Positions 1,546-27,777 of a stretch of DNA of 32,273 nt are shown here, one piece after another. The stretch is from Candidatus Pacearchaeota archaeon (lineage in GTDB: Archaea; Nanobdellota; Nanobdellia; Pacearchaeales; GW2011-AR1). The notes under the pieces were generated by a model, which was not told the origin of the DNA, made no database searches, and was given only the letters and a program-made list of their open reading frames with translations. The stretch lies in the NCBI GenBank assembly GCA_002688015.1, contig NZBT01000015.1:1-32273 (forward strand), read 5' to 3'. The position numbers and the translations under genes are program-made. Within the stretch, counting starts at the first letter, position 1, and every line of letters begins with the position of its first letter.

Positions 1546-1866
1546 ATGTATAAACATATGAATATCCATTCATGTGAACACTTTTTCAAAAACTTCTCAG
1601 ATAGAACAAGATTAGCGATAATCACATCTCTAATAGAAAAACCATTAAGTGTAAACGAAATAGTTGAAAAAACAAGAAATGAACAAAGTAATGTATCACA
1701 CCAATTAAAGAAATTAGTCCATTGTAAAATCTTACTTTCAGAAAGACAAGGAAAGAGAAAAATATATTCATTAAACAACAAGACAATTTCCCCAATATTA
1801 GAAGCAGCCTTTAATCACACCAAAATGAATTGCCAAAACACATGCAATATACAAAAAAATGACTAA
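1546..1866 (+). CDS. ArsR-family winged-HTH transcriptional regulator
   Basis: 'SDRTRLAIITSLIEKPLSVNEIVEKTRNEQSNVSHQLKKLVHCKILLSERQGKRKIYSLN' is a typical ArsR wHTH; Cys-containing C-terminus NCQNTCN; overlaps iscS by 8 nt. Start could be the in-frame ATG at 1558. Confidence 0.85.
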   Translation: MYKHMNIHSCEHFFKNFSDRTRLAIITSLIEKPLSVNEIVEKTRNEQSNVSHQLKKLVHCKILLSERQGKRKIYSLNNKTISPILEAAFNHTKMNCQNTCNIQKND

Positions 1867-3040
1867 AACAATTTATCTTGACACATCAGCAACAACTCCC
1901 TTAGATAAATCTGTCTTCAACGAAATGGAACCTTATTTCTCCGAAGAATATGGAAATGCAGGAAGCATGCATAATAAAGGCTTAATAGCCGCTCAAGCTT
2001 TAAACCGTTCAAGAGACCGCGTAAGCAGAATTCTCAACTGCTTCCCTAAGGAAATAATCTTTACAGGCTCCGGAACAGAATCAATCAATATGGCTCTAAA
2101 AGGAGTAGCAGAAAAATACAAAGATAAAGGTAAGCATATAATTTCAACAACAATAGAACATCATGCAGTTTTAGACACCTTAGATTTTCTTAAAGAACAA
2201 GGTTTTGAAATTACACTTGTAGAAGTAGAACCAAATGGAATTGTTGATCCAAACAAAATAAAAGAAGCAATAAGAAAAGACACAATCTTAGTTTCCGTAA
2301 TGTACGCAAACAACGAAATTGGAACAATACAACCAATTAAAGAAATATCCAAAATAACAGAAGAAAAGGGAATACTTCTCCATACTGATGCATGTCAAGC
2401 AGGAAATTCAGAATCTTTAGATGTAGAATCTTTAGGAGTTGATCTTCTGAGTTTAAACGGATCAAAAATATACGGTCCTAAAGGAATCGGCTGCCTGTAT
2501 AGAAAATCTTCGGTATCTCTGAGTCCATTAATCCACGGAGGAGGACAAGAATTTGGATTAAGAAGCGGAACAGAAAACATTCCTGCAATTGTGGGGTTTG
2601 CTAAAGCGTTAGAAATGTCCCAAAAAAATAAAGAAGATTATACAACTAGGCTTTCTCAACTCAGAGATTACTTAATCGAAAAATTATTAGAAATTCCAGA
2701 TTCTTTTCTCAACGGAGATAAAGAAAAAAGAGTTCCAAATAATGTGAACATAACTTTTCTAAACGCAGAAGGAGAATCAATCTTACTGATGCTCACAGAA
2801 GAAGGAATTTGTGCATCAACAGGCTCTGCATGTACTTCTAAATCTTTAGATCCAAGTCATGTCATCTTGGCATTGGGAAGGCCATATGAAGTTGCACATG
2901 GAAGTATGAGATTTACTTTAAGTAAAGATACAACAAAAGAAGATTTAGAAAAAGTAATTGCTTTAATGCCTTCAATAATCAAAAAACTAAGAGGAATGTC
3001 TCCAGTAATCCTTTCTTTGAATGAGGTAAAAAATGTATGA
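1859..3040 (+). CDS. iscS: Cysteine desulfurase (IscS/NifS family)
   Basis: PLP-lysine region LLSLNGSKIYGPKGIG, catalytic Cys loop STGSACTSKSLDPSHV, N-terminal YLDTSATTPLD. Confidence 0.95.
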   Translation: MTKTIYLDTSATTPLDKSVFNEMEPYFSEEYGNAGSMHNKGLIAAQALNRSRDRVSRILNCFPKEIIFTGSGTESINMALKGVAEKYKDKGKHIISTTIEHHAVLDTLDFLKEQGFEITLVEVEPNGIVDPNKIKEAIRKDTILVSVMYANNEIGTIQPIKEISKITEEKGILLHTDACQAGNSESLDVESLGVDLLSLNGSKIYGPKGIGCLYRKSSVSLSPLIHGGGQEFGLRSGTENIPAIVGFAKALEMSQKNKEDYTTRLSQLRDYLIEKLLEIPDSFLNGDKEKRVPNNVNITFLNAEGESILLMLTEEGICASTGSACTSKSLDPSHVILALGRPYEVAHGSMRFTLSKDTTKEDLEKVIALMPSIIKKLRGMSPVILSLNEVKNV

Positions 3041-3677
3041 TATAGAATCTAAACAAGGAGGTTGGTTTTATTCCCAAACTGTAAAAGATCATTTCTTTGA
3101 GCCAAAGAACTTTGTTAAAACTCAAGAAGAAGCTAAAGAAATAGCACAAGCATCAGATGGAGTAGGAATAGAAGGCTCCCCTGCTTGCGGAGATGTTATG
3201 AAAATGTGGATTAAAGTAAAAGATAACAAAATCGCAGACTGTAAGTGGCAGACTTTTGGATGCGCCTCTGCTATTGCAGCAACATCAATGTTTTCAGTTA
3301 TGGTAACAGAATCTGGCGGTTTACTAATAGATGAAGCATTAAAAATAAAACCTCAAAATATAGTAGACAGACTTGATGGACTTCCAGCAAGAAAGTTCCA
3401 CTGCTCTGTTTTAGCTGATAAAGCATTCAGAGAAGCAGTCAATGATTATTACAAAAAAACAAATCAATTTGATAAGATTGATGAAACTAAAATAAAAGTT
3501 GTAGACAAAATTCTTAACATAACTGATAAAGACATAGAAGAAGCTGCCCTACATGGAGTTAAAACCCTGGATGAATTACAAAAAAGAACGAAGATAGGTG
3601 CCCAAGACAAAAACTGTCTTCCAGAAGCAGAAGAATTATTAAGATATTACAACGAAAAACACTTTAGTGGAAAATGA
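3033..3677 (+). CDS. iscU: Fe-S scaffold protein IscU/NifU-N with C-terminal BFD-like extension
   Basis: Three scaffold Cys (SPACGD, FGCASAIAA, KFHCSVLA); 8-nt overlap with iscS; C-terminal ~70 aa 'LNITDKDIEEAALHGVKTLDELQKRTKIGAQDKNCLPEAEELL'. Confidence 0.9.
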   Translation: MYDIESKQGGWFYSQTVKDHFFEPKNFVKTQEEAKEIAQASDGVGIEGSPACGDVMKMWIKVKDNKIADCKWQTFGCASAIAATSMFSVMVTESGGLLIDEALKIKPQNIVDRLDGLPARKFHCSVLADKAFREAVNDYYKKTNQFDKIDETKIKVVDKILNITDKDIEEAALHGVKTLDELQKRTKIGAQDKNCLPEAEELLRYYNEKHFSGK

Positions 3678-3892
3678 AAAAGAAAATAAAAGGAGACATG
3701 ACAATTGAAAAAATTCTCACTAAATTCCCCAAGGAAGCAGACGAGATTAGAAGAACTTTATTTGAAAATGGAATGCACTGCGTTGGATGTTGGGCAGCTG
3801 CTCTTGAAACATTAGAACAAGGAGCAGAAGTTCATGGAATCGTAGGAAAAGAATTTGAAAATCTTTTAGAAAAATTGAATTCCACGATCTAA
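3674..3892 (+). CDS. DUF1858-like small redox/CxxC protein
   Basis: 72 aa; 'MTIEKILTKFPKEADEIRRTLFENGMHCVGCWAAALETLEQGAEVHGI' fits the DUF1858 pattern; 4-nt overlap with iscU. Confidence 0.75.
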   Translation: MKKKIKGDMTIEKILTKFPKEADEIRRTLFENGMHCVGCWAAALETLEQGAEVHGIVGKEFENLLEKLNSTI

Positions 3893-3893
3893 A

Positions 3894-5528
3894 TTACTCT
3901 CTCTCTTTCAACTTTGTAACATCAACCTCATACCCCTTCTTAAAACCAGCTTGACCTTGCCAGTTAATTCCAGGGCCACAATCTCCCAAAGCAGAACAAA
4001 GCTCAGCATGATCTTTTTCCCAACTGTCTTTTAAACATTCACAATTATCTGAACATTCTTCATCTCCAAAAAGACTCTTTTCAAATGTAACAATACATTG
4101 AGCATTCCCTTGGGCACATATGCTTAGTGTCTCTTCTCCTTCCCAGAATTTAAAGCCTGGACTATTTGAAGGCACACAAACTCCTTTCTTCTGGCTCTTA
4201 TTCAATGTAACAACATCAAATTTCCCTTCCTTCCACAAACAATCTCTTCTATCAGTATTTTCACAATCTTCTTTATCATCTTGAACAAAACATTCTTGCC
4301 ATCTATTTACCACACAAGCAGCCTGACTGAATGTCCCCAAACTCGTCTCTATTTCATCTTCTACACAAGTTTGTTGCCTAAAATCATCACAAGATTCTAC
4401 AACTTCTTCTCCATTAATACATAAGTGTCTGAAAAATCTACTTCCTACAGAATTATCTCCTAAATCCACAGTTCCTATATCAGAATTAATACACCAACTC
4501 TCTCCATGCTTATAATCTTCTCCATTACTAGTATCTTGACAGTTAAGATCAGCACAGATATAATCTCCCATTCTCGGATTTGCATTTTCTTTACTTGCAT
4601 CCCTACAAAAACTTCCTAACAAATAATTACAATTTCCACAATCGACATCATTTGCGTTATCACTATCTGCTCCACATGATTCTGCCTTTGTTTTCACATT
4701 TGCCCAATATTCCGAATCTCTATTAAATGTTTTAGCTGCATCATAAACGTTCCCTGCATTCCCACAAGTATCTACAAAATACACTTCATCTTTTCCAGGA
4801 ACACAAATAGTATTCTCAGTAGGTCCACAATTAGTTCCAAGCTCTTCATCAGTACATAATCTATCTGGATAAAACTCTCCACTAATAGTGCTTGTTCCCT
4901 CAACTCCTGTCGTATCTATTCCTTGAGAGCAAATAGATCTTGTAGTAAATCTACATGTCCTTTCAAACTCAAAGTCAAATACACAGGCTCCTTTTTCTTG
5001 TCCAGCCACAGACAATACACATTGAGTCTCATCTTGTATATCATTTCTATAATTTGTTTGTAATCCTAAATCTGCACTTAATGCCTTACACCTTGTTAAT
5101 GTAACAAAAGCTGCCTGATCTCCTAAAACACAACATCCTAAAGAACACTGTGCTGGTTCTTCTAAAAACCAGACTCCTCCGTCATTATTACAAACAAGTT
5201 CTGGTGTGTTTCCCGAACACGTTCCTTCTATAGAATCTACACAAGTTCCTTCTCTACAAAAACTAGTACTTTCGCAATTTGTAGGCGCCTGTTTATAAAA
5301 TTCATTAGTATTCGGATTTACTTCAGAACTACATTCTTCTATAGGTGCATTTTGACAATAAAGTCCTGATTGTGTTTTTTCACAACAAACAGTAACATCT
5401 GAAGTAGAAACAATCTCTGCAGCAAAAGCTGTTTGAGTCCCAAGTATAAGAAAGACCAAACTAATCAAAAGTACAATCCCTAATCCATATCTTTTTCTTA
5501 TCATTCTATACCATATCCTGGAGGCCAT
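3894..5528 (-). CDS. Secreted cysteine-rich surface protein (paralogue of N-terminal half of the 1403-aa protein)
   Basis: 544 aa; N-terminal TM/signal; dozens of Cys; collinear motifs with the 6333-10544 product (GCCxLGD, CGNCNY, NGESWC, SRxFRxxC, LCxxLGDCG). Confidence 0.85.
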   Translation of the reverse strand: MASRIWYRMIRKRYGLGIVLLISLVFLILGTQTAFAAEIVSTSDVTVCCEKTQSGLYCQNAPIEECSSEVNPNTNEFYKQAPTNCESTSFCREGTCVDSIEGTCSGNTPELVCNNDGGVWFLEEPAQCSLGCCVLGDQAAFVTLTRCKALSADLGLQTNYRNDIQDETQCVLSVAGQEKGACVFDFEFERTCRFTTRSICSQGIDTTGVEGTSTISGEFYPDRLCTDEELGTNCGPTENTICVPGKDEVYFVDTCGNAGNVYDAAKTFNRDSEYWANVKTKAESCGADSDNANDVDCGNCNYLLGSFCRDASKENANPRMGDYICADLNCQDTSNGEDYKHGESWCINSDIGTVDLGDNSVGSRFFRHLCINGEEVVESCDDFRQQTCVEDEIETSLGTFSQAACVVNRWQECFVQDDKEDCENTDRRDCLWKEGKFDVVTLNKSQKKGVCVPSNSPGFKFWEGEETLSICAQGNAQCIVTFEKSLFGDEECSDNCECLKDSWEKDHAELCSALGDCGPGINWQGQAGFKKGYEVDVTKLKERE

Positions 5529-6331
5529 ACAAGGCTCCTTGAGGCAAATGTAAATTCTTCGTCTGTAACAACATTTGATAACTTATAAACCGTACTTCCA
5601 TCTCCAAGTCTATTCTTCTCTATTTTCAAATCAGGATAATATGTAATATAAAGTGAAGTTTCAGAATCTCCTAATGTAGATTCAAAATCTATAATACTTT
5701 GGCTTGTTAGTAGCAAATCATACATTTCACTGTTTAAATCAACAGAAAAACCATCAAAAGTCCTCGTAGTTTCTTTAATTATAGTCATTGGAGTTTCAAA
5801 TTCAAATCTTATTGCTCCAGGAATTATTTTCACATTACTTTTTCCCTTTCCACTAGAGATGGAGAATCCTCTACTTTCATATTCTTCTTGCAAACTTTCA
5901 AAACAATCATTTGCCTTATTTTCAACTAATGAATTAAGCTCTCTTTCAAACTTTGACTTTATCATAGGACTTTGAACAGTACAAGTATCATAATATTCTG
6001 AAGTATAACACAAATACTTCACCTTATTTCCCTCATATAATATAAATCCTTCAGGATCTGCATACCCTCCTTGTGTTCCAAGAAAATCAACATTCGTTCT
6101 TAAATCTTGAGAAACACAATTTCTAAGAAATCCTTGAGGACTAAACTCTGTCCCAGTTATAGTTTCCCCAATACTCGGAAAAAACACAAAAGCAATAACA
6201 ACTGCGGCAACTAACACAATAGCTATAATGACAAATAAAGTAACCTGTCCACTCCTATTCATCCCTCTTTTTCCCCTAAACCTCATGTCTATCTTACCCT
6301 TTCTTAGTTTATAACTTTTTTCTCTTTCCAT
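5501..6331 (-). CDS. Single-pass membrane protein with prepilin-like hydrophobic N-terminus
   Basis: NRSGQVTLFVIIAIVLVAAVVIAFVFF then soluble domain; homologous to the 10522-11301 product; 28-nt overlap with the downstream gene. Confidence 0.8.
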   Translation of the reverse strand: MEREKSYKLRKGKIDMRFRGKRGMNRSGQVTLFVIIAIVLVAAVVIAFVFFPSIGETITGTEFSPQGFLRNCVSQDLRTNVDFLGTQGGYADPEGFILYEGNKVKYLCYTSEYYDTCTVQSPMIKSKFERELNSLVENKANDCFESLQEEYESRGFSISSGKGKSNVKIIPGAIRFEFETPMTIIKETTRTFDGFSVDLNSEMYDLLLTSQSIIDFESTLGDSETSLYITYYPDLKIEKNRLGDGSTVYKLSNVVTDEEFTFASRSLVWPPGYGIE

Positions 6332-6332
6332 T

Positions 6333-9300
6333 TTATGCTATTCCTTGCCTAACAACTATATTACAATCTCCTGGCTTATTATCAAACATATCTTTACATT
6401 TTATATAATACGTTCCCCTATCATCAAATGTAGCTGTATGGATCTTCTCATTTCCATTCATTTGCGTTGTTCCCTCTCCATCAAAGTTAAATTTACACTT
6501 ATTTGCTCTTCCTCCATCTTCTCCAGTAATGTATGAACACTCAGCAGATTCATCAGTAATCAAAACTAATTCCCCTGACCTATCATAAACTCTTGTAACT
6601 CTTGGAGCTTGTGTATCTAAAACAACACTAAACTCTGAATATCCAGAAGCTATATTCCCTCCAACATCAGTACATTCGACATAAAGCAAATGATTCCCAT
6701 TAAATAATTGTAAAGGCACACTATGCTCACTAATTCCTCCTGGAACAAAAGTATCTCCAACTAAAGGCAAATAAGTATCTGATTGAATAGCATATCTACA
6801 AGTTGAAGTCCCATCTACTCCCCCAGAAGTTTTAACATTCACATTCACTGTTCCCGGAGCAACTCCAAATCTTAATTCAGACTCGTCAACAGGCAAAATC
6901 TCATCAATTATCAAACCAGATTGACTTCTTCTAATAACATATTGATAACTTTCTGTATTGGTATTTCTTTCTCTTCTTTCATCTAATTCAACTATTCTTT
7001 CATTACCTTCTCCTTCGTCAACTCTTATAGCACTCAATCCATTTCCATTATCTTCTATAAGCCAGGGCTGATCTTTACACTTAACATAAACTCTGTTTTC
7101 AGGTTCTTCCATTTCCGAAATATCCAAATTAAATTCACATCCCCATCCTTGCAGGACACGGTCCTCCAAATCGTTCTGACAATCAAATTCGTTTTCCATT
7201 AAATCGTAATCCTTGTCAGCCAAACTGAATTTACACTCAGCAGGCTCATTAGTAAATATCGATGCATTCAATTCACTTACAGTAGTATTAACCCACTCTG
7301 TCTCTGGAAATCTAGAAGTAATATGAGGAGCTGTCAAATCTCTCCCTGGCTTAACACAGAAGTTAATTGTATATTCTCTTACATTTTCATTTCCACTAGC
7401 ATCCTTACATCTTGTAAATAAGTTATGATCTACTTTTCTATCAGGATCATATCCTGGCAATCCTAAACTCTCAAGATTAGGAACATTATACACTTGAGTA
7501 TGATTTTTCTTTAACAGTCTATTAATTCCAAAATCAAATTCCATTTCATCAAAGTTATCAGTATGCAAAACATCAAACCTACATGTTCCTGGCTCATTTA
7601 ATTCAAGCCCGAAAACAAGATTATCACTTCCAGAAACACATCCTTCATTGATACTCTCATCAATTCTTTCAATCTTGAATCCATCATTACTAACATCAGC
7701 ATACTCAAATCCAGGAGTTAAAACATTATCAAGAGGACTTATTGAAGGAGCAGTAACATCATCAGGAGCAATGTTTATACATACATCTTCTCCAGTTCCT
7801 TCATTAACTAATTCACATGTCTTCCCCAACGAATCACAAGCATATCTAGAACATGGAAATCCATCTTGCCCACATTTGGAACAGGAAGATCCTCCATCAG
7901 GAGCTTGCCATGGCTGACATGTAAACTGCACAGTCTTCTTCTTCGTATCTCCAACTCCAAGAAGTTTCATCACAACAAGCAACACAACAATTATTATTAT
8001 TGCTATAATTGCAATCGTCGCCGCCGACAATCCTGCTCCCCCAGCAGGCGCTGCAGCAGGAGCAACAGCCCCCTCAGTAACTGTAGCAACTCCGCCCGCA
8101 GTCGAAGTTATAGTGCTCCCAGCAGTAGCAGTTACTGTGCTCCCAGCAGTAGCAGTCACAGATTCTCCAGCAGCCAAAGCATATGTAGCTCCCCCAGCCT
8201 CTGTTATAGAAGCACCCCCAGCTCCCGCAGTAACTTGAATTCCAGCAACAGGGCCTGCTGTTCCAACAGAAAGTGTAGCTCCCCCAGCCCCCACAATAGC
8301 TCCTTTAGTTCCCGCAGCTATAGCGCTTAAAGATGCAGCACTTCCTGCACTAGCGGCCGCAGCCGCTCCCGCAACTGCCCCTGCAACTCCTCCGGCTCCA
8401 ATTAATGAAGATGCTTCTGCCTTTGTCAATCCAGGCCCGACACCTAACAAACTAATTAAAAGGGAAACAGCTCCCGCCCCAGCAGCCGCTCCTGCTAAAG
8501 CCCCTCCAGCTGCAGTCCAAGCAGGATTAGCGCCTAAGGCAGCAGCACTTCCTCCTTCTCCTCCAAGAAGACTGCCAATTATCTTTGATAATGGATTTAC
8601 AGCCGCGCTTCCTGCAGATGATCCCGCAAGAAAAGAAGCAAATACACTTACACTCTCAACCCCAACAACATGTGTCGCTACCAATGCACTAACTCCAATA
8701 AGTCCAGTAACTTTTGAAGTTCCGCCTGCAATATTACTTCCTCCCTCTCCCTCATATTCAGCCATTCCTAATCCTTCAGGAATTCCTAATGTTCCATAAA
8801 AATCAGAGATATCTCCAACTTCAGCAAAATCATTCGGAGAATTTTCATAATCTGAATATTCTTCTATTTTAGATAAATAACTTCTACCTAATTTCGAAGA
8901 TCCTTTAACTCTATAACTTTCAGACAACTCTCCCTGATAATTAACACTTGCTCCACAATCTCCTAAAGACATACAAAGATCATTCATTTGTTGAGTAAAT
9001 CCAGAATCTTCACAATCACAATTAGCTTTACATTTCCAATCTCCTACAGAATTCTTAACATAAATAACAGTACACTTTTGACTTGCAAAGGCACAAAGAG
9101 ATTCCGCAGCTTCACTGTCTGCCTCAACATCCAAATCAAATCCTTCTGGATATTTTGGAGCACAAATATTAAACTTAAACCCTTCATCAACATTAATCTC
9201 TTTAACAAAACAATCTGGATTTCTCTCACACTTATCATCTCTTTCATCCTGTGTTCTTTTTTCTTTTGTAACTTCAGTATTATATTCAAGACATTGTTGC

Positions 9301-10544
9301 CATTTATTTATTCTACAAGCAGCACTTGAAAAAGTTCCCCCTCCTGCTTTTTCTGTTTGCTCCTCAACACAAATCTCATTTCTATAATCTGCACAAGCAT
9401 CTGTTCTTATTTCCCCATCTAAACAAGTTAATCTAAAATGTCTACTTCCTGGAGTATCTATACTTCTAAGTTTCCCTCCTGCTCCTTCATCAACTCCTAT
9501 TGCTCCTTGATAACCACACCAACTCTCCCCATTCTCTCTATCATTTCCTTCTGAATCTTCACATCTCAAATCTTTACAAACAAAGTCTTGTGTACTATCA
9601 TCTAATTTTTCGTTACTTGTCTTCGCTCCACAAGTGCTTCCTCCAAAATAATTACAATTTCCACATATCCCTTGATTCCTCAAGGGATTAGAATCCGTCC
9701 CCAAGGCACAACTATCTACTTTACTTAGAACAAATCCATCATTGAAACTTTGCACTTTATTTGCAGAATAAATATTTTCTCTGTTTCCACAAGAATCAAA
9801 CCAATAAATTTCTCCTCTTCCTTCAACACAATTACTACTTGATTGTGCTTCACATCTTGTTTCCAAATCAGGATTAGAACATAATCTCTCTAGATAAAAA
9901 TCTCCATTAGATTGTAAACACCCTGCTTTCGTCAAAAATCTACAATCATTTTGTTCCAAAGCATTACCCGATGTAAAGACACAAGCCCCTTCTTCTTGCG
10001 CATTTGCTAACAATAAACATGAAAGTTCATTCTGAACATCTTGTCTAAATTCTTCTTCTATTCCTAATAATCTCCCTTGCTTCTCACATTGTCCTTCTGT
10101 TCCAAATCTTGTTTCATCTCCTAAGATACAGCACCCTTCTCTACATTGAGGAATATTCTCAAAAGGATCATCAAACCATGTGTCTCCAGACCTTTCACAT
10201 TCAGCTCTTGTTGCCCCCGCAGTACAACTTCCCTCTCTAGAAGAATAACAAGTCCCTTCTTCACAAATGCTTGTTGCTTCTCTAGGAGCAGGGATACAAT
10301 TTGTTTGACATTGTTCAGCACATTCAGAAGCAGGATAACTTTGACAAATACTTCCATCATTACCTACTTCACAAGTATAAACTCCATTCTGTAAATCACT
10401 TGGTTCCAAAGCAGAAACAGTCTCTATTCCTCCAAATGCATCTCCTAATATATAAGAAAAGGAAAAACTAATACTAACCATCAAAAAGATTTCTAAAATA
10501 ACAATTCCTATTTTCTTCATCTTAAAGTCCTGCAGGAATAGCAC
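6333..10544 (-). CDS. Giant cysteine-rich surface protein, 1403 aa: signal/TM, Cys-rich ectodomain, Gly/Ala-rich hydrophobic region, TM, Cys-containing C-terminal domains
   Basis: Continuous ORF; N-terminal hydrophobic segment; internal TM AATIAIIAIIIIVVLLVVMKLLGV; no enzymatic motif recognised. Confidence 0.85.
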   Translation of the reverse strand: MLFLQDFKMKKIGIVILEIFLMVSISFSFSYILGDAFGGIETVSALEPSDLQNGVYTCEVGNDGSICQSYPASECAEQCQTNCIPAPREATSICEEGTCYSSREGSCTAGATRAECERSGDTWFDDPFENIPQCREGCCILGDETRFGTEGQCEKQGRLLGIEEEFRQDVQNELSCLLLANAQEEGACVFTSGNALEQNDCRFLTKAGCLQSNGDFYLERLCSNPDLETRCEAQSSSNCVEGRGEIYWFDSCGNRENIYSANKVQSFNDGFVLSKVDSCALGTDSNPLRNQGICGNCNYFGGSTCGAKTSNEKLDDSTQDFVCKDLRCEDSEGNDRENGESWCGYQGAIGVDEGAGGKLRSIDTPGSRHFRLTCLDGEIRTDACADYRNEICVEEQTEKAGGGTFSSAACRINKWQQCLEYNTEVTKEKRTQDERDDKCERNPDCFVKEINVDEGFKFNICAPKYPEGFDLDVEADSEAAESLCAFASQKCTVIYVKNSVGDWKCKANCDCEDSGFTQQMNDLCMSLGDCGASVNYQGELSESYRVKGSSKLGRSYLSKIEEYSDYENSPNDFAEVGDISDFYGTLGIPEGLGMAEYEGEGGSNIAGGTSKVTGLIGVSALVATHVVGVESVSVFASFLAGSSAGSAAVNPLSKIIGSLLGGEGGSAAALGANPAWTAAGGALAGAAAGAGAVSLLISLLGVGPGLTKAEASSLIGAGGVAGAVAGAAAAASAGSAASLSAIAAGTKGAIVGAGGATLSVGTAGPVAGIQVTAGAGGASITEAGGATYALAAGESVTATAGSTVTATAGSTITSTAGGVATVTEGAVAPAAAPAGGAGLSAATIAIIAIIIIVVLLVVMKLLGVGDTKKKTVQFTCQPWQAPDGGSSCSKCGQDGFPCSRYACDSLGKTCELVNEGTGEDVCINIAPDDVTAPSISPLDNVLTPGFEYADVSNDGFKIERIDESINEGCVSGSDNLVFGLELNEPGTCRFDVLHTDNFDEMEFDFGINRLLKKNHTQVYNVPNLESLGLPGYDPDRKVDHNLFTRCKDASGNENVREYTINFCVKPGRDLTAPHITSRFPETEWVNTTVSELNASIFTNEPAECKFSLADKDYDLMENEFDCQNDLEDRVLQGWGCEFNLDISEMEEPENRVYVKCKDQPWLIEDNGNGLSAIRVDEGEGNERIVELDERRERNTNTESYQYVIRRSQSGLIIDEILPVDESELRFGVAPGTVNVNVKTSGGVDGTSTCRYAIQSDTYLPLVGDTFVPGGISEHSVPLQLFNGNHLLYVECTDVGGNIASGYSEFSVVLDTQAPRVTRVYDRSGELVLITDESAECSYITGEDGGRANKCKFNFDGEGTTQMNGNEKIHTATFDDRGTYYIKCKDMFDNKPGDCNIVVRQGIA
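8113..8160 (-). repeat. Two-copy 24-bp in-frame tandem repeat in the Gly/Ala-rich region
   Basis: gtgctcccagcagtagcagttact / gtgctcccagcagtagcagtcaca; encodes GSTVTATA-type repeats. Confidence 0.75.
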
Positions 10545-11301
10545 ACCCCCTTATAGCAAGATTCATTTCCTTTTCTGTTTCCTTATCTTTTATCGAATAA
10601 ATTTTTGTTCCTTCATTTACCGTTGTTTTCTCAATATCAAACCTTTGATGTAAAACATTATACCCAACATACTCAAAATAACAATACTTTGCTTCTTCAC
10701 TTGATATCTCATTTCCTATAAGGGCAAGATCATACAAGGAATTGATTATCTCTATATCAAACTTATCAAACCTCTCCGTATTCCCTTGCTTTTCTATAAC
10801 AATTTTTCTATTAATTGTTAAAAAGATTCTATTAAAGGCAAAATCAATTTCATTATTCATCTCTCCAATAGTAATTGTCCCCCACCTACTCTCAACTTCT
10901 TCTTTCAACAAATCAAAACACACTCCTATCCTCTCTTCAGAATTTCTAATAACTTCTTCTTTCAAATCATTTAACAAACTAGGATGCTGACTCACACAAG
11001 GCCCATAATTCCCTTTATTCAAACACAAATAACTAATATTAATTCCATTATACATTATAGAATTTTTATCGTCGACAAATCCCCCATGAGGCAACATTAA
11101 ATCTACGGCGTCATTTACTGCATCCCGAGCACATTTTTCTATAAATCTGCTTGGAAAAAATTCATTCCCCTCTCCTATATCAATTTCGACTCCAGGTCTT
11201 TCAATTGAAAAGAATAAAATCATACTTCCAATTAAAGCAATTGCAATTATCACCCAAATCGTTATTGCTTGCCCTCTCCTTCCAATCTCACCTCTTATCA
11301 T
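10522..11301 (-). CDS. Single-pass membrane protein with prepilin-like hydrophobic N-terminus
   Basis: RRGQAITIWVIIAIALIGSMILFF; collinear with the 5501-6331 product (FxxxCxxDxxxxVD..GG, YLC, SxYDLxL); 23-nt overlap with the giant gene. Confidence 0.8.
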   Translation of the reverse strand: MIRGEIGRRGQAITIWVIIAIALIGSMILFFSIERPGVEIDIGEGNEFFPSRFIEKCARDAVNDAVDLMLPHGGFVDDKNSIMYNGINISYLCLNKGNYGPCVSQHPSLLNDLKEEVIRNSEERIGVCFDLLKEEVESRWGTITIGEMNNEIDFAFNRIFLTINRKIVIEKQGNTERFDKFDIEIINSLYDLALIGNEISSEEAKYCYFEYVGYNVLHQRFDIEKTTVNEGTKIYSIKDKETEKEMNLAIRGCAIPAGL

Positions 11302-11434
11302 TCTTTTCCTCCCAAAGCCGTTTTATCGCCTTTTCAATAGCATGGGATTTATTTCTAAAATCTTCATTTTCCATTAATTTATCAAGAACTTTGTCCGTTT
11401 CTTCATCTATTGTTGCTGAAATCCTTTTTTTCAT
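11288..11434 (-). CDS. Ribbon-helix-helix (CopG/Arc-type) DNA-binding protein, 48 aa
   Basis: Hand translation: MKKRISATIDEETDKVLDKLMENEDFRNKSHAIEKAIKRLWEEKNDKR*; beta-strand plus two helices as in RHH; overlaps the next gene by 14 nt; absent from ORF track (short). Confidence 0.85.
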   Translation of the reverse strand: MKKRISATIDEETDKVLDKLMENEDFRNKSHAIEKAIKRLWEEKNDKR

Positions 11435-26005: not shown

Positions 26006-26052
26006 TAACGAATATTTATTTAAACTTTCTTATACCTTTGAATACATCTAAG

Positions 26053-26109
26053 CTTTTCAATAGTTTGAAAAGAAAAACGAAAAGTTTAAATACTACTGTA
26101 ATTGAAAAG
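26053..26109 (+). promoter_or_regulatory. Promoter of surface protein gene: inverted repeat CTTTTCAA-TAGT-TTGAAAAG, TATA box TTTAAATA (26085-26092), further TTGAAAAG copy
   Basis: Direct reading; TATA box lies about 30 nt upstream of the ATG at 26122. Confidence 0.5.
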
Positions 26110-26121
26110 TTACAACAAAAA

Positions 26122-27777
26122 ATGATGAACACAAAAAAATTATTCAGTGTTTTCGCTTTCTTGGCGATAATTGTTCTCTCACTTTCAGTTGTATCAGCTT
26201 TAAGTCTAGGTTCAACATCTAATGATTTAACAGAATCTCAATCTTCAACAACTTTAACTCTAACAAATACAAACACAACAGACATGCAAAACGTAACATT
26301 CTCAATCAGTTCAATTATATCAGGATCAAACCAAGTCATTTTTAACACACCTGCAGCTATATCAAATCTTGCTGCTTCAGGAACTTCACCCGTAACAGTT
26401 TCATATTCAAGTATCATAGGAGATTTTGATTTCGGAAGATATGACACTACATTAACAGCAACAGGAACTTCTTCAAGCGCAACACAAACAATTACATTCC
26501 AAAAGGGCTTCTGTGAGTCAGGAGAAGTTGGTGGAAACTTATCTATAAAGGATATTAACATAGATAACACAGGAACAGGAGATGAAGATGAGTGGTTCTT
26601 GTTAGATGATCTTGAAATTGAAGTAGAAGTAGAGAACGACGGAGATATAGATATAGACGAAATAATTATAGAATTAGGATTATTTAACTCAGATGGAGAA
26701 AATATTATAGATGATCTTGACTTTGAGAACGATGACGAAGAAAAGATTGATGCAGGAGATATTGAAGAATCTGGAGAAGACGACGAATTAACAGAGAGAT
26801 TTATATTCAGAGTCCCAGCAGATCTTGAAGACGAAAATTACAAATTAACAGTAAAAGCATATAGTGATGATCTTGGAGAAAGTGTTGAATGTACTGATAC
26901 TGCAAGCGAACTTGACACAAATGACATATACAAGACAATTGATGTTGAAAGAGAAGATGATGAAGGTAAATTTATTGCCTTTGAGGATAATAAACTCTCA
27001 GTTGAAGAAGCAACTTGTGGAGAAGAAATAACATTAGACACAACAATATTCAACATTGGAGATGAAGATCAAGATAGAGTAAGAGTAAATCTAAGAAACA
27101 CAAAGCTTGGATTAGACATGACTGAAGAAATAACAAGCGACTTAGATAAGGGAGATGACTCAGATGTAACATTCACATTTACTGTTCCAAACGATGCAGA
27201 AGATGGTACACACTTATTGGTTCTTACTGCAGAATATGATTACAAGAAATCTTCTGGAGCATACAGAGAAAGTTCTGATGAAGAGAAGAGAATTCCTTTG
27301 AAAGTTATTGGATGTGGCACTCCAAGCACACCAACAGAAGGAAGAATTGCAACAATTGCAGCTACACTTGAATCAGACGCAGTTGCTGGTAGAGAATTGA
27401 TTGTAAAATCAGAAATAACAAATATTGCAGGCTCAACAAGGTCCTTTGTAGTTGATGCAACAGGATACGACTCATGGGCAACTCTAGAATCAATATCACA
27501 AAGATTGATAACTTTATCTTCTGGAAACTCAAGAGAAGTTACATTCACATTCTTACCAAATAGAGATGCTACAGCAGAACAAAAGACTTTTGTAATCTCA
27601 GCTCAATCTGGTGAAGTAGTAGAGACAAGAGAAGTAGCAGTAACTCTAGAAAGTCCAGCTACAGGATTCTCTAGCCTATTTGCAGGAGGCAACACATTAA
27701 TCTGGACAATTGGAATAATCAATATTGTTCTAATAATCCTAATCATAATTGTTGCTGTAAGTCTAGCAAGAAGATAA
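26122..27777 (+). CDS. Surface (S-layer-like) protein with signal peptide, NEW3/CARDB-like domains, acidic core and C-terminal TM-basic tail
   Basis: Signal MMNTKKLFSVFAFLAIIVLSLSVVSA; C-terminal PATGFSSLFAGGNTLIWTIGIINIVLIILIIIVAVSLARR; the ORF-track start at 26038 lies upstream of the TATA box. Confidence 0.85.
   Translation: MMNTKKLFSVFAFLAIIVLSLSVVSALSLGSTSNDLTESQSSTTLTLTNTNTTDMQNVTFSISSIISGSNQVIFNTPAAISNLAASGTSPVTVSYSSIIGDFDFGRYDTTLTATGTSSSATQTITFQKGFCESGEVGGNLSIKDINIDNTGTGDEDEWFLLDDLEIEVEVENDGDIDIDEIIIELGLFNSDGENIIDDLDFENDDEEKIDAGDIEESGEDDELTERFIFRVPADLEDENYKLTVKAYSDDLGESVECTDTASELDTNDIYKTIDVEREDDEGKFIAFEDNKLSVEEATCGEEITLDTTIFNIGDEDQDRVRVNLRNTKLGLDMTEEITSDLDKGDDSDVTFTFTVPNDAEDGTHLLVLTAEYDYKKSSGAYRESSDEEKRIPLKVIGCGTPSTPTEGRIATIAATLESDAVAGRELIVKSEITNIAGSTRSFVVDATGYDSWATLESISQRLITLSSGNSREVTFTFLPNRDATAEQKTFVISAQSGEVVETREVAVTLESPATGFSSLFAGGNTLIWTIGIINIVLIILIIIVAVSLARR

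Follow-up and report, generated by a model that had tools for sequence, protein, structure and literature searches.

Gene organization of the locus

The stretch of DNA analysed here (the window) is an entire 32,273-base contig, C15, of a 592-kb, 83% complete MAG whose closest named relatives are Candidatus Pacearchaeota and Nanoarchaeota MAGs. A first-pass annotation of this DNA, which rightly took it to come from a DPANN archaeon, had described five minus-strand open reading frames (ORFs), an RHH regulator at the head of an operon followed by two single-TM proteins (TM1 and TM2) and two large Cys-rich proteins (Long and Short), and all five are present (Table 1). A further gene, B-only, was overlooked in that reading and is the third gene after Long and Short; it is cut by the contig end, and a C-terminus that matches it is found at the start of contig C16 (G000:C16:3-356). 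Short and B-only are separated by genes on the other strand (1546-3892) encoding an ArsR-type regulator, an IscS/NifS-like protein, a NifU-like protein and a DUF1858 protein. Elsewhere in the window, positions 26038-27777 (+) encode a 579-aa protein with CARDB and weak Ig-like matches, which is another likely surface protein.

Table 1. Coordinates of the module and of the cut genes at the two ends of the window.
Feature	Position	Strand	Evidence or remark
RHH (CopG-type) regulator, 48 aa, operon head	11288..11434	-	Pfam RHH_1 E 7.7e-06, above curated cut-off
TM1, class III (prepilin-like) signal RRG-Q, one TM, ~220-aa exported domain	10522..11301	-	
Long: A + hydrophobic middle + B, 1395 aa from ATG, 64 Cys	6333..10520	-	
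A domain of Long including signal peptide, 43 Cys, homologous to Short	8841..10520	-	
Middle of Long: Ala/Gly-rich, hydrophobic, no Cys, strong TM at about aa 836	7941..8840	-	
B domain of Long, 21 Cys, Ig-like	6336..7931	-	Alignment and Big_13
TM2, class III-like signal RSG-Q, one TM, mixed alpha/beta exported domain	5501..6331	-	
Short: A domain only, 43 Cys	3894..5528	-	Conserved start probably ATG at 5504
Start of the B-only gene, encoding an N-terminal signal, several hydrophobic segments and the first part of B; truncated at the contig end	1..802	-	
S-layer protein, C-terminal part, cut by contig end	30382..32178	-	Pfam S_layer_C (PF05124) E 2.5e-06

The homologies proposed between the two modules are borne out by alignment. 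Short is 38% identical to the first ~500 aa of Long (E 7.3e-80) and TM2 is 30% identical to TM1 (E 7.5e-31), values that rule out chance similarity of the two modules. Among the motifs listed as common to Long and Short, GCCxLGD, CGNCNY, SRxFRxxC and LCxxLGDCG occur in both proteins, but NGESWC reads HGESWC in Short.

Overlaps of 23 nt (TM1/Long) and 28 nt (TM2/Short) had been reported and taken to suggest translational coupling and fixed stoichiometry, but neither figure holds. The first holds only if Long starts with a GTG at 10544; its ATG at 10520 lies 1 nt past the TM1 stop. The second counts from an ATG at 5528, and if Short starts instead at the Met that the alignment shows to be conserved (M9, 5504), the overlap shrinks to 4 nt. 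The commonest distances in relatives are -4 nt for TM2/Short and -4 to +1 nt for TM1/Long, and in the window the RHH and TM1 genes overlap by 14 nt. The idea of coupling survives, but the reported overlaps on which it was built rest on doubtful start codons, and fixed stoichiometry is not supported in that form.

The first-pass annotation had recognized no named family in these proteins, and our searches concur. Profile searches of Pfam, NCBIfam and PDB with A, TM and B matched no characterized family, B giving only Ig-like matches. With Foldseek, an AlphaFold2 model of Short (pLDDT 88.4) gave no significant match in PDB or a viral model library, and a model of TM2 (pLDDT 90.8, pTM 0.78) gave no match in PDB at E <= 0.001.

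Domain architecture of Long, Short and B-only

Long consists of two domains, A and B, each of which occurs separately elsewhere. The A domain (~540 aa, 43 Cys) constitutes all of Short, and the B domain (~530 aa, 21 Cys) comes after the Cys-free middle of Long, in which 3-5 hydrophobic segments are predicted. Of 52 B sequences, 43 match the Pfam Ig-like domain Big_13, the best at E 1.4e-06. The earlier description of Long as a Cys-rich protein fits its Cys content but leaves out both the Cys-free hydrophobic middle and the Ig-like B domain. The repeat-like middle also stands out in base composition as a GC peak (0.48 vs about 0.35).

In relatives, a B-only gene commonly comes after Short, and two loci (L069 and L084) have an undivided A-B protein as their second module. 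By these architectures, Short and B-only together amount to a split Long. Because Long and B-only carry hydrophobic segments of their own in most Pacearchaeota, they may be anchored independently of TM.

Conservation of the cluster and origin of the two modules

Of 58 genomes, the MAG itself included, 41 contain the A domain (31 of 34 in the MAG's own family), as do 90 of 287 genomes sampled across the phylum. Synteny was counted in 80 named loci of relatives, many of them on cut contigs. The genes usually run in the order PCNA, small regulator, TM1, Long, TM2, Short and B-only, followed by four pilin-like genes, a divergent HTH gene and an S-layer gene; all four pilin-like genes are visible in 28 of the 80 loci and are conserved across the class. 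Of 77 complete cases for Short, 75 have a co-directional TM gene immediately before it; for Long, a TM gene comes first in 56 of 59. The same cluster recurs in distant families of the class, lying downstream of PCNA and upstream of the four pilin-like genes, and the TM gene adjoins an A gene in 12 of 16 of these families. Adjacency of the two gene types in relatives, which the first-pass annotation had put forward as a check, is kept across the class.

PCNA and divergent DNA primase genes are conserved neighbours upstream of TM1 in Pacearchaeota (L062-L101, L102-L181). Beside the primase gene, many relatives encode a ~600-aa membrane protein with Cys motifs (e.g. L070:2659-4452), for which no Pfam match over its cut-off was obtained.

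In trees built from 53 loci (106 sequences), TM1 separates from TM2 and A-long from A-short, with supports of 0.995 and 1.0 and 0 of 106 sequences misplaced. Because both gene types split cleanly by copy in these loci, the trees point to one ancient block duplication as the source of both modules. The split is older than the sampled group, which rules out a recent duplication. Cognate TM/Cys pairs also co-vary more than swapped pairs (partial r of distance matrices, other two genes removed, 0.32 and 0.41 for cognate pairs, 0.13 and 0.28 for swapped pairs), a difference we take as no more than suggestive, since significance is also clear for one swapped pair.

Fusions and pairing of TM proteins with exported partners

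In 12 ORFs at 11 loci, belonging to the remaining four of the 16 distant families (f57, f39, f58 and f13), TM, A and usually B are joined in one chain. These ORFs (460-1306 aa) start with a class III-like signal, and the profile match spans nearly the whole TM domain (e.g. positions 7-251, E 6e-51). Each of the eight fusions inspected has a single hydrophobic segment, which is N-terminal, with no further one separating A from B. Since they are fused into one chain in four families, TM and A-B are likely to work as one unit; since the fusions have a single N-terminal TM, B is expected on the same outer side as A. A cytoplasmic B domain, considered under the positive-inside rule, was dropped on the latter ground.

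The pairing extends beyond the locus. For all 36 TM-family genes whose neighbour is in view, most of which sit at other genomic places, the next gene begins within 50 nt, has the same orientation and is of exported type (one with an N-terminal hydrophobic segment); among other genes in the same loci, 18 of 122 have such a downstream neighbour. What follows is A, A-B, a protein of 1606-2512 aa or a few-Cys protein of 343-712 aa, except for one TM gene that precedes a pilin-like gene. Many relatives encode a TM-family protein of ~630 aa and, close after it, an exported protein of 1606-2512 aa from a different unnamed family (L099-L101, L250, L252, L256 and L257; spacing -4 to +31 nt). Downstream of the B gene at L138, L141 and L165 lie additional TM genes, whose exported partners (582-706 aa) are poor in Cys.

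Two other explanations of the pairing bear on these data. Operon partners need not bind each other, and the TM and Cys-rich proteins could be merely co-transcribed surface proteins with no physical link; the fusions, the 36/36 adjacency at many loci and the co-duplication make this very improbable. The TM proteins could also be membrane chaperones or export helpers, each serving one large client and staying outside the final structure, as might be expected of genes that precede unrelated large exported proteins, Cys-rich or Cys-free, of 343 to 2512 aa. We regard such an assembly role as unlikely: the fusions keep the TM domain in the product, and the TM proteins have prepilin-type signals and no recognized chaperone domain.

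Cysteine pairing and a predicted disulfide between A and B

Conserved Cys columns number exactly 43 in Short and 21 in B-only. Several Cys of Short are lost in pairs, namely C478-C498 (12 times together, 1 alone), C492-C496 (6 together, 1 alone), C242-C308 (5 together, 0 alone) and C49-C66 (4 together, 0 alone), as are C108 and C117 of the TM proteins (7 together, 0 alone). A VKOR-type disulfide enzyme is encoded in the MAG.

In counts that are not phylogenetically independent, the number of Cys is odd in 66 of 75 Short and 41 of 54 B-only proteins and even in 41 of 55 Long proteins. In f31, a second lineage with separate A and B genes, A has 43 and 41 Cys, and B has 23 and 23. Since A and B have odd numbers and Long an even number, the simplest reading is that A and B would be joined by one disulfide, which would be inter-chain where the genes are split. 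The odd numbers in Short and B-only could instead come from homodimer bonds.

At first pass, every TM protein had been proposed to be the partner of the Cys-rich ectodomain encoded in its own module, the two forming a disulfide-stabilised complex at the cell surface. That proposal gains from these results together with the fusions, the co-duplication and the adjacency, and neither of the outcomes named at first pass as counting against it, placement in a characterized family or loss of adjacency in relatives, turned up in our searches. Complex formation between TM and Cys-rich partners is well supported by the sequences.

Prepilin-type signal of the TM proteins

Class III signals are the type cut by archaeal prepilin peptidases. 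Over 125 aligned TM sequences, position +1 is Gln and position -1 is Gly, Ala or Ser in every case (125/125 for each), and Lys or Arg is found at -3 in 106 and at -2 in 103, in a leader that is usually short. Together with a stretch of ~20 hydrophobic residues, these features make up a class III signal. Position +5 is Phe in 97 sequences, Trp in 14, Tyr in 8 and Ile in 6; it is aromatic in 119, and Glu, usual at this position in major pilins, is absent from all 125. The TM proteins have a prepilin signal, but because they lack Glu +5 and the TM2 model has no pilin match, they are not classical pilins. On the same two grounds, a role as major pilins was rejected.

Among 38 relatives, 36 encode a prepilin peptidase (family A24), 37 a T2SSE-family ATPase and 34 TadC; none of the three was found in the MAG itself, an assembly that is 83% complete.

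Regulator slot and S-layer neighbourhood

Upstream of TM1, 58 loci could be compared. A small DNA-binding gene heads the operon in 41 of them, partly in keeping with the dedicated regulator that had been suggested, but its product is an RHH protein in only 13, the window included, and a ~61-aa winged-helix protein in 28; the remaining 17 have neither. The regulator slot is kept, usually overlapping the TM1 start, while the regulator type is swapped.

In the MAG, the end of contig C1 (L262:6756-11683) carries all four pilin-like genes together with the HTH gene and a truncated S-layer gene, of which the 5' part is present. This end and the right edge of the window are probably neighbours, because they hold 5' and 3' S-layer parts, respectively.

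In 23 of 80 loci the operon can be seen to have an S-layer gene next to it, and in the MAG such a gene comes after the pilin-like genes. This arrangement would suit a static envelope scaffold, that is, a disulfide-linked layer between membrane and S-layer held by an uncut class III-like anchor, with no filament. Near-universal retention in tiny genomes fits such a structural role, as does a TM2 fold that matches no pilin. We nevertheless think a static scaffold rather unlikely, if less so than an assembly role, in view of the invariant Gly/Ala/Ser followed by Gln with a short basic leader, the four more pilin-like genes in the same operon and the prepilin peptidase in nearly all relatives.

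Proposed function

Pairing, co-duplication, fusion, signal type, disulfide pattern and synteny can all be read from the sequences. In our judgement they make it fairly probable that the module encodes a prepilin-anchored, disulfide-rich extracellular complex, perhaps a pilus-tip-like adhesin. Each TM protein would enter the membrane by its class III signal, with its body outside, and would be made together with the exported protein of the next gene, which it would bind and anchor. The partners would be A-B (Long), A alone (Short) and B alone (the third gene), A and B probably being joined by one disulfide. With the four further pilin-like proteins, and beside the S-layer, a type IV pilus-like tip or short stalk would probably form, presenting large disulfide-locked ectodomains for adhesion or cell-cell contact. 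We infer from sequence features that the prepilin peptidase cleaves the signal, that the TM proteins enter a filament and that the complex is adhesive; host contact is plausible for Pacearchaeota.

To our knowledge, most Pacearchaeota surface proteins lack names, and a search of the literature on Pacearchaeota and DPANN cysteine-rich surface proteins found no description of the TM/A/B system. The gene set appears to be ancient and undescribed, and its carriage by tiny Pacearchaeota archaea makes it a strong candidate for touching other cells. A wider reading, which we put forward tentatively and with less than even confidence, is that it represents an undescribed archaeal surface machine, in which prepilin-signal anchors of a new fold each hold their own ectodomain from several unrelated families, A and B are linked by a conserved inter-chain disulfide, and the whole serves cell-cell or host contact across the class.

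The module bears on how small DPANN archaea grip other cells, for which it offers a concrete, near-universal candidate gene set. Several predictions follow: binding between cognate partners, cleavage between Gly and Gln, and one A-B disulfide between separately encoded chains. If the rule that one prepilin-like TM gene precedes one large exported protein is true, many hypothetical surface proteins of the class could be annotated as pairs.

Comparison with known systems

In bacterial type IVa pili, PilY1 and four minor pilins form a priming and adhesive tip complex (PMC7541494). The cluster described here resembles it in linking four small proteins with prepilin signals to a giant exported non-pilin protein. 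It differs in having no sequence or Pfam relation to PilY1, A being without a Pfam or PDB match and so without the PilY1 C-terminal domain or vWA. It differs also in that the giant proteins each have their own TM partner gene, are Cys-rich, and come in A, B and A-B forms with an Ig-like B.

The TM proteins share with archaeal type IV pilins (surveyed in PMC4858521) a basic leader, Gly or Ala followed by Gln, and a hydrophobic stretch, and relatives encode prepilin peptidase, ATPase and TadC, none of which was found in the MAG itself. Unlike those pilins, the TM proteins have no Glu +5, their predicted fold is unmatched, and each is either paired with a giant ectodomain or fused to one. The text of that survey (PMC4858521) contains none of the terms DPANN, ARMAN and Nanohalo.

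Conserved pilus loci with CpaF, TadC and coiled-coil proteins have been described in cluster 2 DPANN, including Pacearchaeota, and host contact has been proposed for them (PMC11291902). The module differs from these loci in having neither CpaF nor TadC beside it, and its proteins are Cys-rich or Ig-like, not coiled coils. Neither CpaF nor TadC is among its conserved neighbours; where a single contig holds both, as in four genomes, their distance from it is ~15 to 100 kb.

Archaeal S-layer proteins (PF05124), whose models (S_layer_N and S_layer_C) match none of TM, A and B, are alike in being encoded by a neighbouring gene and in belonging to the same cell surface.
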